Of a stretch of DNA of 64,000 nucleotides, positions 10,688 through 63,325 are shown in pieces (the stretch's first letter is position 1; the number at the start of each line of letters is the position of its first letter). The translations under genes were made by a program, and so were the position numbers. The notes under the pieces were generated by a model that had not been told where the DNA came from, did no database searches, and was given only the letters and a program-made list of their open reading frames with translations. Source of the stretch: an uncultured Eubacteriales bacterium (GTDB lineage Bacteria; Bacillota; Clostridia; Oscillospirales; Acutalibacteraceae); NCBI GenBank assembly GCA_951801675.1, contig CATONX010000001.1:1-64000 (forward strand), read 5' to 3'.

Positions 10688-11083
10688 TTATTCCGCCTCG
10701 TGGTGATGGCCGCAGCCGCCAGTGCCGCAGGTATGTTCCCCGCCTTCGTGGTGGTGGTTGCATTGGCCCGCCGGGTTATCGGCAAGCTCCCCGGCCAGAT
10801 AGGCCTGCACCGCGTCGTCGGTGGAACCGCTTGCCCCGGCCACCAGCGCAATGCGGTTAGAAGCCAGCGCCTGCCGGGCGCCCGCGCCGATGCCGCCGCA
10901 GATGAGCACCGTGACGCCGTTTGACGCTAAGAGGCCCGCCAGCGCCCCGTGGCCGTTTTCCCCCGCGTCCAGCACCTGCTTGCGCACCACCTGCCCGTTC
11001 TCCGCCTCATAGAGGGCGAACTGCTTGGTTTTCCCGAAATGCTGAAAAATTTGGCCGTTCTCAGCCGTTACCGCGATTTTCAA
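10688..11083 (-). CDS. NifX/NifB-associated (dinitrogenase Fe-Mo cofactor family) protein with His-rich tail
   Basis: A 131-aa protein. Residues 1-100 match the small NifX-like fold (MKIAVTAENG..., HFG motif near 15-17, ICGGIGAGA near 60) that binds iron-sulfur or metal cofactors. The C-terminus is a His/Cys-rich tail with HHH, CGTGGCGHHH and two Cys, unlike NifX itself and typical of stand-alone clostridial members. It is last in an operon with Mrp/NBP35 and DUF134, so a role in Fe-S or metal-cluster handling rather than nitrogen fixation is likely. No nif genes are in view. Confidence 0.85.
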   Translation of the reverse strand: MKIAVTAENGQIFQHFGKTKQFALYEAENGQVVRKQVLDAGENGHGALAGLLASNGVTVLICGGIGAGARQALASNRIALVAGASGSTDDAVQAYLAGELADNPAGQCNHHHEGGEHTCGTGGCGHHHEAE

Positions 11084-11104: not shown

Positions 11105-11941
11105 TTATTTGCGTGCCTCAATGGCGTCAGCCGCACCGTTTAACCATTCCCCTTGGAAGGACTCGATGTCCCCCGCGTCGCAGAGCTTGGCAATGTCCGG
11201 ATTCAAAGGCAGCCGGCCCAGCACCGTAAGGCCGTTCTTCGCCGCCGCCTCGTCTAGGTGGCTTTCCCCGAACACAAAGAGCTTCCTGCCGCAGTCAGGA
11301 CATTCCACATAGCTCATGTTTTCCACCACGCCCACAATCGGGATGTTCATGGTTTTGGCCATGTTGACCGCCTTCTCCACGATCATGCCCACCAGCTCCT
11401 GGGGCGAGGTGACAATTACAATCCCGTCGAGCGGGATGGACTGGAACACCGTCAGCGGCACGTCGCCGGTTCCCGGAGGCATGTCCACAAACATGTAGTC
11501 CACGTCCTCCCAGATCACGTCCGTCCAGAACTGCTTGACCGCCCCCGCAATGATCGGGCCCCGCCAAACCACCGGCTCGGTTTCGTCGTTCAGCAGCAGG
11601 TTGATGGACATAATGTCCACCCCGGTCTTGGTGCGGGAAGGGAGCATCCCCGCCGGGATGGCCTTCGCCCGCTCCTTGATGCCGAACACCTTCGGAATGG
11701 ACGGGCCGGTAATGTCCGCGTCCAGCACCGCCGTGTGGTATCCTTTGCGGTTTAAAAGCACCGCCAGCATGGAGGTGACCAGGGACTTGCCCACGCCCCC
11801 CTTGCCGCTTACCACCCCAATGACCTTTTTAATCCGGCTCATCTCATGGGGCTTTTCCAAAAAATCCTTCGGGTCCGCCTGCCTGGAGGGGCAAGCCTCC
11901 CCGCAGCTGGAACAATCGTGGGTGCAGTTTTGTTCGCTCAT
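11105..11941 (-). CDS. Mrp/NBP35-type P-loop ATPase, Fe-S cluster carrier
   Basis: A 278-aa protein. ATG 11941 overlaps the stop of the DUF134 gene (ATGA) and follows AAAGGAG. The frame stays open upstream but that part lies inside the DUF134 gene. Near the N-terminus is a Cys cluster (CTHDCSSCGEAC). The deviant Walker A is GKGGVGKS (about residue 50), with DADITGPS, the DMPPGTGD switch and a C-terminal CPDCG pair that binds a bridging cluster. Mrp/ApbC/NBP35 proteins assemble and transfer [4Fe-4S] clusters in the cytoplasm. Confidence 0.93.
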   Translation of the reverse strand: MSEQNCTHDCSSCGEACPSRQADPKDFLEKPHEMSRIKKVIGVVSGKGGVGKSLVTSMLAVLLNRKGYHTAVLDADITGPSIPKVFGIKERAKAIPAGMLPSRTKTGVDIMSINLLLNDETEPVVWRGPIIAGAVKQFWTDVIWEDVDYMFVDMPPGTGDVPLTVFQSIPLDGIVIVTSPQELVGMIVEKAVNMAKTMNIPIVGVVENMSYVECPDCGRKLFVFGESHLDEAAAKNGLTVLGRLPLNPDIAKLCDAGDIESFQGEWLNGAADAIEARK

Positions 11942-12300
11942 TTGTCTGACAACTCCTTTTGTGTTTCCTCGTGAAACCGGCACTTCTTGCACCGAAAGAC
12001 GCACGCGCATCCGGTTTTAGCCACCTCGTAGTGGCCGCCCTCGATCACAAGGGTGTCGCCTCCGCACAGGGCCTTGGCCGTGTGAAACCGGGCGGCGTAA
12101 AGAATGCGCTGGAAGGTGCCGCGGGACACGTTCATCCGTTTGGCGGCGCTGTCCTGTTCGAGCCCTTCCAGGTCGCACAGCCGCAGCGCCTCCAGTTCCT
12201 CCACCGAAAGGGCGACCCTGCCCCCGCTTTTCGGCTCCGGCGTGAACACCCGCGCCCTCGGCTCGGCGCACACCCGCCGGCATTTGCTGGTTCTGGGCAT
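11938..12300 (-). CDS. DUF134 (UPF0251) helix-turn-helix protein with Cys cluster
   Basis: A 120-aa protein; AAAGGAG sits seven bases before ATG 12300. Features are the PRTSKCRRV start, LSVEELEALRLCDLEGL, and a sigma-like HTH (QDSAAKRMNVSRGTFQRIL, about 50-68). The tail CACVFRCKKCRFH carries four Cys suited to bind an Fe-S cluster or metal. It is first in an operon with Mrp and a NifX-like protein. It is probably a metal- or redox-sensing regulator, perhaps of its own operon, whose promoter carries a perfect palindrome; that link is inference. Confidence 0.85.
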   Translation of the reverse strand: MPRTSKCRRVCAEPRARVFTPEPKSGGRVALSVEELEALRLCDLEGLEQDSAAKRMNVSRGTFQRILYAARFHTAKALCGGDTLVIEGGHYEVAKTGCACVFRCKKCRFHEETQKELSDK

Positions 12301-12350
12301 ATCGGCTCCTTTCTATTAAGTATGGTATAACCAAAGAGAGATGAAAAAAT

Positions 12351-12394
12351 AACGTGCATATGCTCATAAATAGTATAATGAGCATATGCACGTT
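12351..12394. promoter_or_regulatory. Perfect 17-bp inverted repeat (operator) over the DUF134 promoter
   Basis: AACGTGCATATGCTCAT (12351-12367) and its exact complement (12378-12394) are separated by 10 bp that hold the -10 box. Each arm contains the self-palindrome GCATATGC. One arm exactly fills the spacer between -35 and -10. It could also fold as an RNA hairpin, but the embedded promoter points to a repressor or sensor site. Confidence 0.8.
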
Positions 12395-12400
12395 TGTCAA
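12372..12400 (-). promoter_or_regulatory. Strong sigma-A promoter of the DUF134-Mrp-NifX operon
   Basis: On the minus strand TTGACA (12400-12395), a 17-bp spacer and TATACT (12377-12372). The -35 is perfect and the -10 matches 5 of 6. The leader to ATG 12300 is about 65 nt and begins inside the downstream arm of the inverted repeat. Confidence 0.85.
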
Positions 12401-12413
12401 GAGGAAAGGGAAA

Positions 12414-12644
12414 TTACCGGCTCTTATTATAAAGGTATCCGCATGCGATGGTCAGCTGCTCATCCATGCAGGTGATGATTTGATGCAGAATCGCGTAATC
12501 TTCTGAAGAAAGCTTTCCGCGCAGGCGGGCCAGCAAGGCCATTTTCGTCTGCTCAAGCCGGATAAAGCTCACATCCTTGCGGACATCTTCTTCTAATATT
12601 TTATAAATGCAGTCAATAGAATTATTGGGTTGCGTGTAATACAT
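12414..12644 (-). CDS. Small helical protein of unknown function, divergent from XRE regulators
   Basis: A 76-aa protein starting at ATG 12644, with GAGGTGG five bases upstream; an in-frame GTG at 12653 overlaps that ribosome site and is less likely. The sequence is soluble and mostly helical (EEDVRKD, RLRGKLSSEDYAILHQIITCMDEQL). Its size, helical pattern and position resemble the DUF6809-like gene at 60996-61280, also divergent from an XRE array, but similarity is too low to claim by eye. It is transcribed from a near-consensus promoter. Confidence 0.7.
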   Translation of the reverse strand: MYYTQPNNSIDCIYKILEEDVRKDVSFIRLEQTKMALLARLRGKLSSEDYAILHQIITCMDEQLTIACGYLYNKSR

Positions 12645-12663
12645 ATAGCCCACCTCATTGGTT

Positions 12664-12692
12664 ATTATAGCTTATATATAAGCGATATTCAA
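12664..12692 (-). promoter_or_regulatory. Promoter of the 12414-12644 gene with a palindromic spacer
   Basis: On the minus strand TTGAAT (12692-12687), 17-bp spacer and a perfect TATAAT (12669-12664). The spacer contains the 14-bp perfect palindrome GCTTATATATAAGC (12670-12683), a likely repressor site. Confidence 0.82.
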
Positions 12693-12704
12693 GCGTTTTG
12701 TCCT

Positions 12705-12726
12705 ACGATACAATACAAAGTATCGT
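12705..12726 (+). promoter_or_regulatory. Dyad before the first XRE gene
   Basis: ACGATAC (12705-12711) and GTATCGT (12720-12726) form a perfect 7-bp dyad with an 8-bp centre, ending 11 bp before ATG 12738. A weak promoter TTGTCC-N17-TATCGT (12699-12727) overlaps it, consistent with autoregulation by the small XRE protein. Confidence 0.45.
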
Positions 12727-12737
12727 GAGGTGGGAAG

Positions 12738-12962
12738 ATGATTGTTTACACGCCATTTTGGGATACGCTTAAAAGAAAAAAGGTTACTGGCTACGCCCTA
12801 ATGAAACAGCATAACGTGGGCAACGGAACTCTTTATCGCATGCGTCATAATAAACCGCTTTCCACGAACACCATCAACGACTTATGTAAAATTTTAGACT
12901 GTAAGGTAGAGGATGTTCTTCTTTATTTACCAGATAGTGAAAATGAGAATGAGAATGAATAG
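12738..12962 (+). CDS. Small XRE/Cro-C1 helix-turn-helix regulator (copy 1)
   Basis: A 74-aa protein preceded by GTGAGGTGGGAAG. It is little more than one HTH domain: W8-DTL, GYALMKQHNVGNGTLYRMR (recognition helix about 25-38), then LSTNTINDLCKILDCKVEDVLLYLPD. This matches the HTH_26-type small Cro/C1 proteins (YozG-like). It is a near copy of the 13262-13480 gene. A promoter with a dyad lies directly upstream, so negative autoregulation is plausible. Confidence 0.88.
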   Translation: MIVYTPFWDTLKRKKVTGYALMKQHNVGNGTLYRMRHNKPLSTNTINDLCKILDCKVEDVLLYLPDSENENENE

Positions 12963-12995
12963 CCAGAGCTGTAATAGGCGCTGGCTATTTTATTC
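12958..12995 (+). terminator. Weak terminator after XRE copy 1
   Basis: AATAGCCAG (12958-12966) pairs with CTGGCTATT (12981-12989), followed by TTATTCT. A similar hairpin follows copy 2 near 13476-13510, so it was duplicated with the gene. Confidence 0.55.
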
Positions 12996-13012
12996 TCTAG
13001 AGGGGGATGACC

Positions 13013-13237
13013 ATGGATTATCGTGACCGGTTTCGTCGGCTGAGGATTGAGCACGACTTAGACCAGAAGGATATTGCCAGGATCTGCAATGTCTCCCCTC
13101 AACTTGTCAGCCATTGGGAAACGTATAAAAGGCATATGACCGTTGATACCGTGATTGCTTTGTGCCGATACTTCCAGGTTTCCGCTAATTATATTCTCGG
13201 TATTCCTGATTATCCCTATCCGAAGGGCGAGAGATAG
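13013..13237 (+). CDS. Small XRE-family helix-turn-helix regulator
   Basis: A 74-aa protein. AGGGGG (13001-13006) is six bases from ATG 13013; an ATG at 13007 is too close to it. A canonical Cro/C1 HTH runs RLRIEHDLDQKDIARICNVS-PQLVSHWE, followed by MTVDTVIALCRYFQVSANYILGIPDYP. The tail motif FQVSANYILG matches the four XRE proteins near 61.4-62.4 kb. It sits between the two copies of the duplicated XRE gene. Confidence 0.88.
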   Translation: MDYRDRFRRLRIEHDLDQKDIARICNVSPQLVSHWETYKRHMTVDTVIALCRYFQVSANYILGIPDYPYPKGER

Positions 13238-13261
13238 AAAAAGTTCGGGCGAGGTGGAAAA

Positions 13262-13480
13262 ATGATTGTTTATGCCCCATTTTGGGATACGCTCATGCAA
13301 AAGGGGATTTCTGGTTATGCCCTGATGAAACAGCATAATGTGTGCAACGGAACTCTTTATCGCATGCGTCATAATAAACCGCTTTCCACGAACACCATCA
13401 ACGACTTATGTAAGATTTTAGACTGTAAGGTAGAGGATGTTCTTCTTTATTTACCGGATAGTGAAAATGAGAGCGAATAG
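13262..13480 (+). CDS. Small XRE/Cro-C1 helix-turn-helix regulator (copy 2)
   Basis: A 72-aa protein preceded by GAGGTGG four bases before ATG. From GYALMKQHNV to LPDSENE it is almost identical in amino acids and DNA to the 12738-12962 gene; differences cluster in residues 5-16 (MQKGISG versus KRKKVTG) and in one loop residue. The HTH is intact. It appears to be a recent tandem duplicate with a partly altered N-terminal helix. Confidence 0.88.
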   Translation: MIVYAPFWDTLMQKGISGYALMKQHNVCNGTLYRMRHNKPLSTNTINDLCKILDCKVEDVLLYLPDSENESE

Positions 13481-13535
13481 CCAGAGCGGTAATGGGCGTT
13501 GGCTGTTTTATATATCCGAAGGACGAGAGATAAAA

Positions 13536-42403: not shown

Positions 42404-42447
42404 ATAAAAAACGCGCCTCCTGGCTCATTCCAGGAGGCGCGTTTTGT
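42404..42447. terminator. Bidirectional terminator between convergent genes
   Basis: AAAACGCGCCTCCTGG (42407-42422) pairs with CCAGGAGGCGCGTTTT (42430-42445), a 16-bp stem flanked by A and T runs. It ends the flippase transcript (plus) and the cysK-rhomboid transcript (minus). Confidence 0.92.
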
Positions 42448-46246: not shown

Positions 46247-46296
46247 AAAAAGGCGGTATGCCGCTCCCGATCCTAGGAGCGGCATACCGCCTTTTT
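46247..46296. terminator. Strong bidirectional terminator between proS and the spoIIID 5' half
   Basis: AAAAAGGCGGTATGCCGCTCC is half of a 21-bp perfect stem (arms 46247-46267 and 46276-46296) that ends in five T residues on both strands. Read on the minus strand it stands 20 bp after the stop of the truncated spoIIID, so in the unexcised state the truncated message ends here and proS is insulated. Confidence 0.93.
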
Positions 46297-46562: not shown

Positions 46563-46603
46563 AAAAAAGGAGGGGGACGGACAAAAGGTCCGTCCCCCTC
46601 CTT
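46563..46603 (-). terminator. Terminator of the CDP-sugar operon
   Basis: AGGAGGGGGACGGAC (46569-46583) pairs with GTCCGTCCCCCTCCT (46589-46603), perfect over 15 bp. On the minus strand it is followed by TTTTTTCTC. Confidence 0.93.
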
Positions 46604-63282: not shown

Positions 63283-63325
63283 AAAACCCCCGGCGGAGTT
63301 AATCTCCGCCGGGGGTTGTTGTTTT
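63283..63325. terminator. Terminator of the hydrogenase gene (bidirectional)
   Basis: CCCCCGGCGGAG (63287-63298) pairs with CTCCGCCGGGGG (63304-63315). It is followed by TTTTCG on the minus strand and TTGTTGTTTT on the plus strand. Confidence 0.9.

Follow-up and report, generated by a model that had tools for sequence, protein, structure and literature searches.

DUF134 as a probable autorepressor of a DUF134-Mrp-NifX operon, with a CATATG-centred operator pair at its promoter

The DUF134 protein is proposed here to be a dimeric autorepressor of the DUF134-Mrp-NifX operon, with a perfect inverted repeat at the promoter as its operator pair; comparing sequences across genomes, we put the probability of this reading at roughly 80%. 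Autoregulation by DUF134 had been suggested in the original prediction, and DUF134 emerged as the best candidate binder on the strength of covariation between its recognition helix and the operator, co-occurrence of operator and DUF134, and operators at NifX genes. Direct binding of DUF134 to the operators is strongly supported by these comparisons. Repression rather than activation, and the dimer state, we infer, repression because of the promoter geometry. Throughout, the window means the whole stretch of DNA that was analysed (64,000 nucleotides), and the coordinates of its relevant features are collected in Table 1.

Table 1. Promoter elements, operators and genes of the DUF134-Mrp-NifX operon in the window
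Feature	Position	Strand	Details and source
-35 hexamer TTGACA	12395..12400	-	6/6
Operator 1	12378..12394	-	arm filling the -35/-10 spacer; core GAGCATATGCAC at 12380-12391 (+ strand)
-10 hexamer TATACT	12372..12377	-	5/6; within the inverted-repeat loop
Operator 2	12351..12367	-	arm past the -10, over the predicted start; core GTGCATATGCTC at 12354-12365 (+ strand)
DUF134 (PF02001) regulator, 120 aa	11938..12300	-	proposed binder of both operators; Pfam, AlphaFold2, Foldseek
Predicted third HTH helix, residues 60-80	12061..12123	-	specificity residues G61 and R65
Cys tail C98-x-C100-x3-C104-x2-C107	11980..12009	-	possible metal or Fe-S site
Mrp/NBP35-type P-loop NTPase	11105..11941	-	PF10609, E 1.3e-88
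NifX-like protein	10688..11083	-	PF02579 (Pfam)

Promoter, repeat and genes in the window

The perfect inverted repeat with arms of 17 bp that had been predicted is present; its arms are the two proposed operators, and its loop measures 10 nt. This repeat ranked second among the window's perfect inverted repeats with a gap of 3-20 nt, behind one of 21 bp, and the longest arm per shuffle was 9-12 bp in 20 dinucleotide shuffles of the window. Read on the minus strand, the order is TTGACA, arm, TATACT, ATTT, arm. The claim that one arm exactly fills the 17-bp spacer of TTGACA-N17-TATACT was found to hold for the arm 12394-12378, and the other arm (12367-12351) covers the predicted transcription start, as claimed; the start is expected at about 12365, roughly 7 nt past the -10. 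Each arm is an imperfect palindrome, GWGCATATGCWC, so that the arms also constitute a direct repeat at 26 bp, and the operon carries a CATATG-centred palindrome inside its own promoter. Further perfect hairpins of some length, which may be terminators, occur in the window at 46247-46296 (the 21-bp repeat), 46567-46603, 42408-42445 and 63285-63317. Next to the promoter there is a small duplication, in which near-identical HTH_26 genes (12738-12962 and 13262-13480) flank an HTH_3 gene (13007-13237).

DUF134 was assigned to DUF134 / UPF0251 by Pfam (PF02001 at 84 bits vs a cut-off of 27, E 1.1e-23). The Mrp reading frame opens at 12010, and its start is placed, as the probable one, at MSEQNC (11941). 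The Mrp protein matched the N-terminal part of NCBIfam MrpORP at 338 bits and the NifX-like protein the C-terminal part at 83 bits, both under the cut-off of 450.

The DUF134 structure was modelled using AlphaFold2 with a 25-sequence alignment (mean pLDDT 85.6), which gave helices at residues 33-44, 49-55 and 60-80. The top Foldseek matches of the model were region 4 of SigR, SigD, SigC and SigE, the SigE structure being one with -35 DNA. SigR region 4 (5fgm) superposed at 0.6 A over 46 columns with a probability of 1.00 and a weak E of 0.11, the best in that search, in which no match had E ≤ 0.001. Scores against the Pfam sigma region 4 families were under the cut-off both for PF08281 (25.0 vs 25.7 bits) and for PF04545 (22.4 vs 24.1 bits), and no solved structure matched DUF134 by sequence. 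The modelled DNA-binding fold resembles that of sigma-factor region 4, and DUF134 is not classed as a Sigma-70 region 4 member.

Of the 25 near relatives that were aligned, 13 have the full C-x-C-x3-C-x2-C tail, 22 have its CxxC half and all 25 have Cys 11; two loci (L208 and L209) are without the Cys tail and have kept the operator. DUF134 and NifX were found as one open reading frame at 1 of 32 named loci and 26 of 166 other loci, and the fusion was verified by Pfam (PF02579) in L003:1498-2259 and L205:2501-3295. These fused frames look as if regulator and sensor had been placed in one protein. Mrp or NifX lay on the DUF134 strand at 25 of the 32 named and 89 of the 166 other loci, many of the stretches being short. 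In a sample of the phylum, DUF134 scored above the cut-off in 260 of 398 genomes.

Operator conservation and covariation with the recognition helix

Thirty loci of the family served as the discovery set for CATATG, and later sets, some sharing genomes or genera with it, served as a check. CATATG was present within 150 bp upstream of DUF134 at 23/30 discovery loci and at 44/60 further family and order loci, for which 200 shuffles gave a mean of 3.6 and a maximum of 8 (one of 61 loci was omitted, its upstream region being too short). The phylum-wide set consisted of 75 fetched loci, mostly the best-scoring among the phylum matches; here CATATG was found at only 19 (shuffle mean 3.1, maximum 7), and the remaining 56 had none within 150 bp. 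CATATG was the most frequent of all 64 six-base palindromes in every set, by a narrow margin phylum-wide (19 vs 17 for TTTAAA), and in coding positions 31-180 of the same DUF134 genes it occurred at 0/30, 1/61 and 0/75. Inspection by eye showed variants such as CATAAG, flanked by TTC, in several promoters of the phylum-wide set. Three loci scored as misses in the order set (L050, L052 and L065) are second genes of NifX-DUF134 operons, with the operators before NifX.

A scan with the window's close clade yielded 32 named loci, of which 4 repeat loci of other sets. CATATG was found within 165 bp of the start in 28 of these, in 27 cases as GNGCATATGCNC. The expectation that the palindrome would recur upstream of DUF134 in relatives was thus borne out in the family, order and named sets, and far less often phylum-wide. 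Carriers of CATATG include Sporobacter termitidis, Lachnoclostridium phytofermentans and Merdimmobilis hominis, as well as MAGs titled Synergistaceae, Fibrobacter, Latescibacterota and Zixibacteriota; in an Omnitrophota MAG the operator reads GCACATATGTGC. Among the misses of the named set, L210 has GTGTGCATATGCACAC 238 bp above the start, which was probably called too far downstream, L212 has core variants by eye, and no operator was found at L207. At the fourth miss, L182, a relative from the window's genus, the operator is identical to window positions 12343-12406 at 64/64 bases and lies about 960 bp above the start. Between operator and DUF134 start, an insert of about 930 bp (L182:1548-2475, CAMLYM010000035.1) contains an Xre-like HTH frame and a second small frame (by eye), placed behind the operator. 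L006, of the same genus as the window, had been regarded as lacking the palindrome; a BLAST comparison placed it beyond an insert of about 930 bp, some 960 bp above the start, and the palindrome was present in 3/3 genomes of the window's genus examined.

Acetanaerobacterium elongatum again has a perfect 17-bp repeat, with other bases. In several species (L001, L002 and L191) the operator arms are perfect inverted copies with differing bases, a pattern hinting at copy correction between the two arms. Across these loci the conserved unit is each arm, a CATATG-centred palindrome, and the perfect repeat of 44 bp is a feature of certain species. The suggestion that the palindrome is a regulator's operator is supported, as is its conservation upstream of DUF134, and is modified in that the unit is the single CATATG palindrome, not the 44-bp repeat.

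For the analysis of covariation, removal of 4 duplicates left 194 loci and removal of 3 identical upstream sequences left 191 distinct regions, 110 of which held the 151 CATATG sites at ≤ 165 bp. The third base after CATATG (+3) was C at 56/66 sites with R65 vs 1/85 without it (Fisher 9e-30, relatedness ignored). Mutual information, calculated using protein columns at least 80% filled, one site per locus and four flanking bases, was highest for residue 65 and base +3 and second for residue 61 and base +2, both residues being on the predicted third helix of DUF134. The window itself, with R65 and downstream halves CTC and CAC, follows the rule that pairs R65 with C at +3.

In a tree that was computed with the helix columns left out, and whose resolution is poor, R65 changes about five times; the independent R65 pairs number 1 on well-supported branches and 5 on all, too few for significance in a sign test, and residue 61 with base +2 did no better than residue 65 in the tree-aware test. 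The rule is broken in 8/110 loci. Arg arises at five places within a clade of 66 that contains all non-Arg proteins, and there L165 (TTC) and L134 (TCC) are Arg loci that follow the rule. The Arg loci L022, L025, L026 and L125 (CTC, CTC, TTC and CTC) also follow it, L048 (CCC) obeys it whereas its sister L004 (TAA) does not, and L126 agrees in 1/3 downstream halves.

Two other explanations of the repeat were weighed against these data. In the first, the repeat would be an operator serving a regulator other than DUF134, such as the product of the 79-aa frame at 12414-12653 or of one of the small HTH genes nearby at 12738-13480. Regulators commonly control adjacent genes, the repeat has three small HTH genes of the Xre type at a distance of about 340-1080 bp, and the L182 insert does hold another HTH gene. 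Yet at L182 the region corresponding to 12407-13531, with the HTH genes, does not align beside the operator while the operator is identical over 64 bp, and the operator both varies with the DUF134 recognition helix and accompanies DUF134 across genomes; this explanation is accordingly considered highly improbable.

In the second, to which even less weight is given, the repeat would be an intrinsic terminator of the upstream frame (12414-12653, minus strand), consisting of a 17-bp hairpin followed by TATTTTTT. The RNA fold of 12394-12301 reached -32 kcal/mol (z -7.7) and a T-run does follow the stem, but the loop is 10 nt and a terminator scan of 12200-12700 returned none. CATATG palindromes occurred at least twice in 38/110 loci and singly in 72/110, and the 72 therefore have no such hairpin; a terminator would also leave the covariation with DUF134 unexplained. 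Since transcription of DUF134 is expected to begin within the second arm, its mRNA cannot form the hairpin, and a hairpin in that mRNA was rejected as a candidate. The repeat may have a secondary role as a terminator, alongside the proposed role as DUF134 operator pair.

Promoter geometry and distribution of operators across genomes

Promoters of relatives were called with a finder that allowed spacers of 16-18 nt only and gave a small bonus for 17. Among the 143 sites for which a promoter was called, 131 fell on the -35, within the spacer or no more than 40 nt past the start of the -10, and 12 were upstream of the -35; 8 sites were without a call. Where the protein has Gly or Ala at 61 and Arg at 65 (the window's class), the centre of CATATG was 15 nt from the -35 start, i.e., mid-spacer, at 14/41 sites and at 41-42 in 16/41, and in the non-Arg class it was at +7 in 38/81, where TTGACA is one operator half; this geometry is partly circular, because spacers of 16-18 nt were imposed and TTGACA is part of the non-Arg motif. 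The mid-spacer placing of operator 1 is seen also in relatives of the window's class, and their second site has an offset similar to that of the window's operator 2. A single fixed helical phase for two dimers was considered and dropped, since most spacings ranged from 21 to 41 bp, eight of them being 26-27 bp. Binding would most probably result in repression, because at most such places it would compete with sigma and polymerase.

The position of operator 1 also bears on the possibility that DUF134 binds and activates in the manner of MerR, through spacer binding and promoter distortion. MerR dimers bind the centre of the promoter spacer, which is where operator 1 lies. MerR promoters have spacers of 19-20 bp, whereas the window has a 17-bp spacer, a perfect TTGACA and a second site over the start, and DUF134 had no MerR family match in Pfam or NCBIfam. 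Spacer lengths of relatives are uninformative here, the search having been limited to 16-18. Activation of this kind is thus judged unlikely, and repression by DUF134 is preferred.

The strict pattern of the non-Arg class, TGACATATGNCNNAAA, was sought in 197 genomes of the order, 55 of which have DUF134 at E ≤ 1e-8. It was present in 40/55 genomes with DUF134 vs 18/142 without (Fisher 8e-16), and the 197 genomes held 71 sites against a background of 24 sites for the backwards pattern. A smaller earlier run had given 20/20 genomes with DUF134 vs 2/20 without and 8 backwards sites in 40, its genomes having been chosen partly for known DUF134 promoters. In G009 the only site lies inside a gene. 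Of the 53 strict sites in genomes with DUF134, 30 are within 200 bp of the DUF134 match by coordinate. Thirteen more are before a NifX-DUF134 operon (3) or a DUF5320-DUF134 operon (1), about 250-390 bp ahead of a DUF134 gene (2), or before a NifX gene that forms a separate unit (7 sites, 5 genomes), which brings the sites at DUF134 or NifX units to 43/53. The other 10 are not clearly at either (NifX gene 354 bp on for 1, elsewhere for 9). None of the 18 sites in genomes without DUF134 was near NifX, Mrp or DUF134 in the stretch examined, which for G226 included a site at a contig end.

Because operators precede NifX genes in separate units, DUF134 probably acts outside its own operon too. The clear cases of unlinked NifX genes are G202, in which the operator-bearing gene is 21 kb inside a contig other than that of DUF134, and G259, in which it is on a short contig and DUF134 is 10 kb from the ends of its own; PF02579 was confirmed for both genes. 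G203 was set aside as such a case as both contigs end nearby, and in G218 and G244 the NifX gene adjoins DUF134 in the opposite direction. CATATG operators were seen right before PF02579 genes on contigs that differ from that of DUF134 in L246:1500-1960 and L254:1500-2091. At L245:1500-1875, a DUF5320 gene stands between a two-site operator and DUF134, and may be part of the DUF134 regulon. A site at position 1500 of L279 (G243:C10:5554-8569) is operator-like, with a second CATATG 23 bp away, and lies away from DUF134, NifX and Mrp, making it a possible further target.

Exact copies of GWGCATATGCWC number 6 in the window's genome. Beyond the promoter pair, three are inside reading frames (by eye, presumably rpsD-, recG- and pckA-like) and one is after a Crp/Fnr-like gene. 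Sites with one mismatch numbered 36 on one strand vs 11 for the backwards control; seven with intact CATATG were inspected, and two were at gene starts (C11:8130 and C18:47409). No wider regulon was seen among the exact sites and these seven. In the genomes of 24 relatives, TGDGCATATGCHCA was found at 19 places in 15 genomes, 15 of the places being at DUF134 promoters by coordinate; of the four others, three are in long reading frames and one is before a small HTH-like gene.

Proposed mechanism and relation to known systems

A DUF134 dimer would bind the CATATG-centred palindrome through a helix-turn-helix like that of sigma region 4, with recognition-helix residue 65 (Arg here) setting the base three positions outside CATATG, so that the preference between GTGCATATGCAC and TGACATATGTCA would switch with the residue-65 class. 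Of two such dimers, one would occupy the centre of the -35/-10 spacer and the other would cover the transcription start, about 26 bp further downstream; together they should exclude RNA polymerase, and DUF134 would therefore repress its own operon. Release would follow a metal or Fe-S related signal, read via the Cys tail and/or the NifX partner.

DUF134 has its best Foldseek matches, at weak E-values, in Sigma-70 region 4 and a Pfam Sigma70_r4_2 score just under the cut-off (25.0 vs 25.7 bits), and the non-Arg-class operator often includes TTGACA, as in TTGACATATGTCA. Unlike the Sigma-70 family, it is stand-alone, without region 2, recognises a palindrome and is proposed to be a repressor. 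A similar HTH was also matched in 7bhy (Foldseek rank 4, 0.8 A over 39 columns, weak E 0.17), the DNA-binding domain of DeoR of Bacillus subtilis, a known regulator; DUF134 has no sugar-binding domain, and in its place there is a Cys tail of short length or, in part of the relatives, NifX as a fused domain.

IscR-type proteins are autoregulated Fe-S repressors, and DUF134 would be comparable if its Cys tail carries a cluster, the first gene of an Fe-S operon then repressing that operon; there was no IscR/Rrf2 match for DUF134 in Pfam or NCBIfam. The operon also resembles the MrpORP / orange-protein (ORP) system of Desulfovibrio vulgaris in its Mrp/NBP35 ATPase and NifX-like ORP modules, which score under the equivalog cut-off. 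Desulfovibrio orp operons are described as sigma-54 controlled in PMC6345978. The window differs in that each module has its own gene and the promoter is of the sigma-70 type, with DUF134 operators.

A literature search under DUF134, UPF0251, COG1342, PF02001/pfam02001 and MrpORP found no function for DUF134. In the excerpts retrieved, DUF134, COG1342 or PF02001 is mentioned as a name in a table, as a predicted HTH in a halovirus protein and with a putative quadruplex motif, and UPF0251 as a mutated gene in a table.

One joint reading of these observations is offered tentatively, as possible rather than probable. DUF134 would be, family-wide, a stand-alone mimic of sigma region 4, and its operator in many relatives an inverted pair of -35 hexamers (TTGACATATGTCAA), with repression by capture of sigma's -35. 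The sensor would be the NifX that it controls, as the DUF134-NifX fusions suggest, and NifX load would set its own supply by feedback. The window's clade would have moved the operator into the spacer alongside the changes at residues 61 and 65.

Because the operator is defined, the specificity hypothesis concerns two residues and the targets are few (its own operon, Mrp and NifX), the function of DUF134 becomes directly testable. The uncharacterised DUF134 family is thereby tied to Fe-S and metal-cofactor carrier genes in anaerobes, and it appears to switch off such iron-sulfur and metal-cofactor carrier genes in many anaerobic bacteria.
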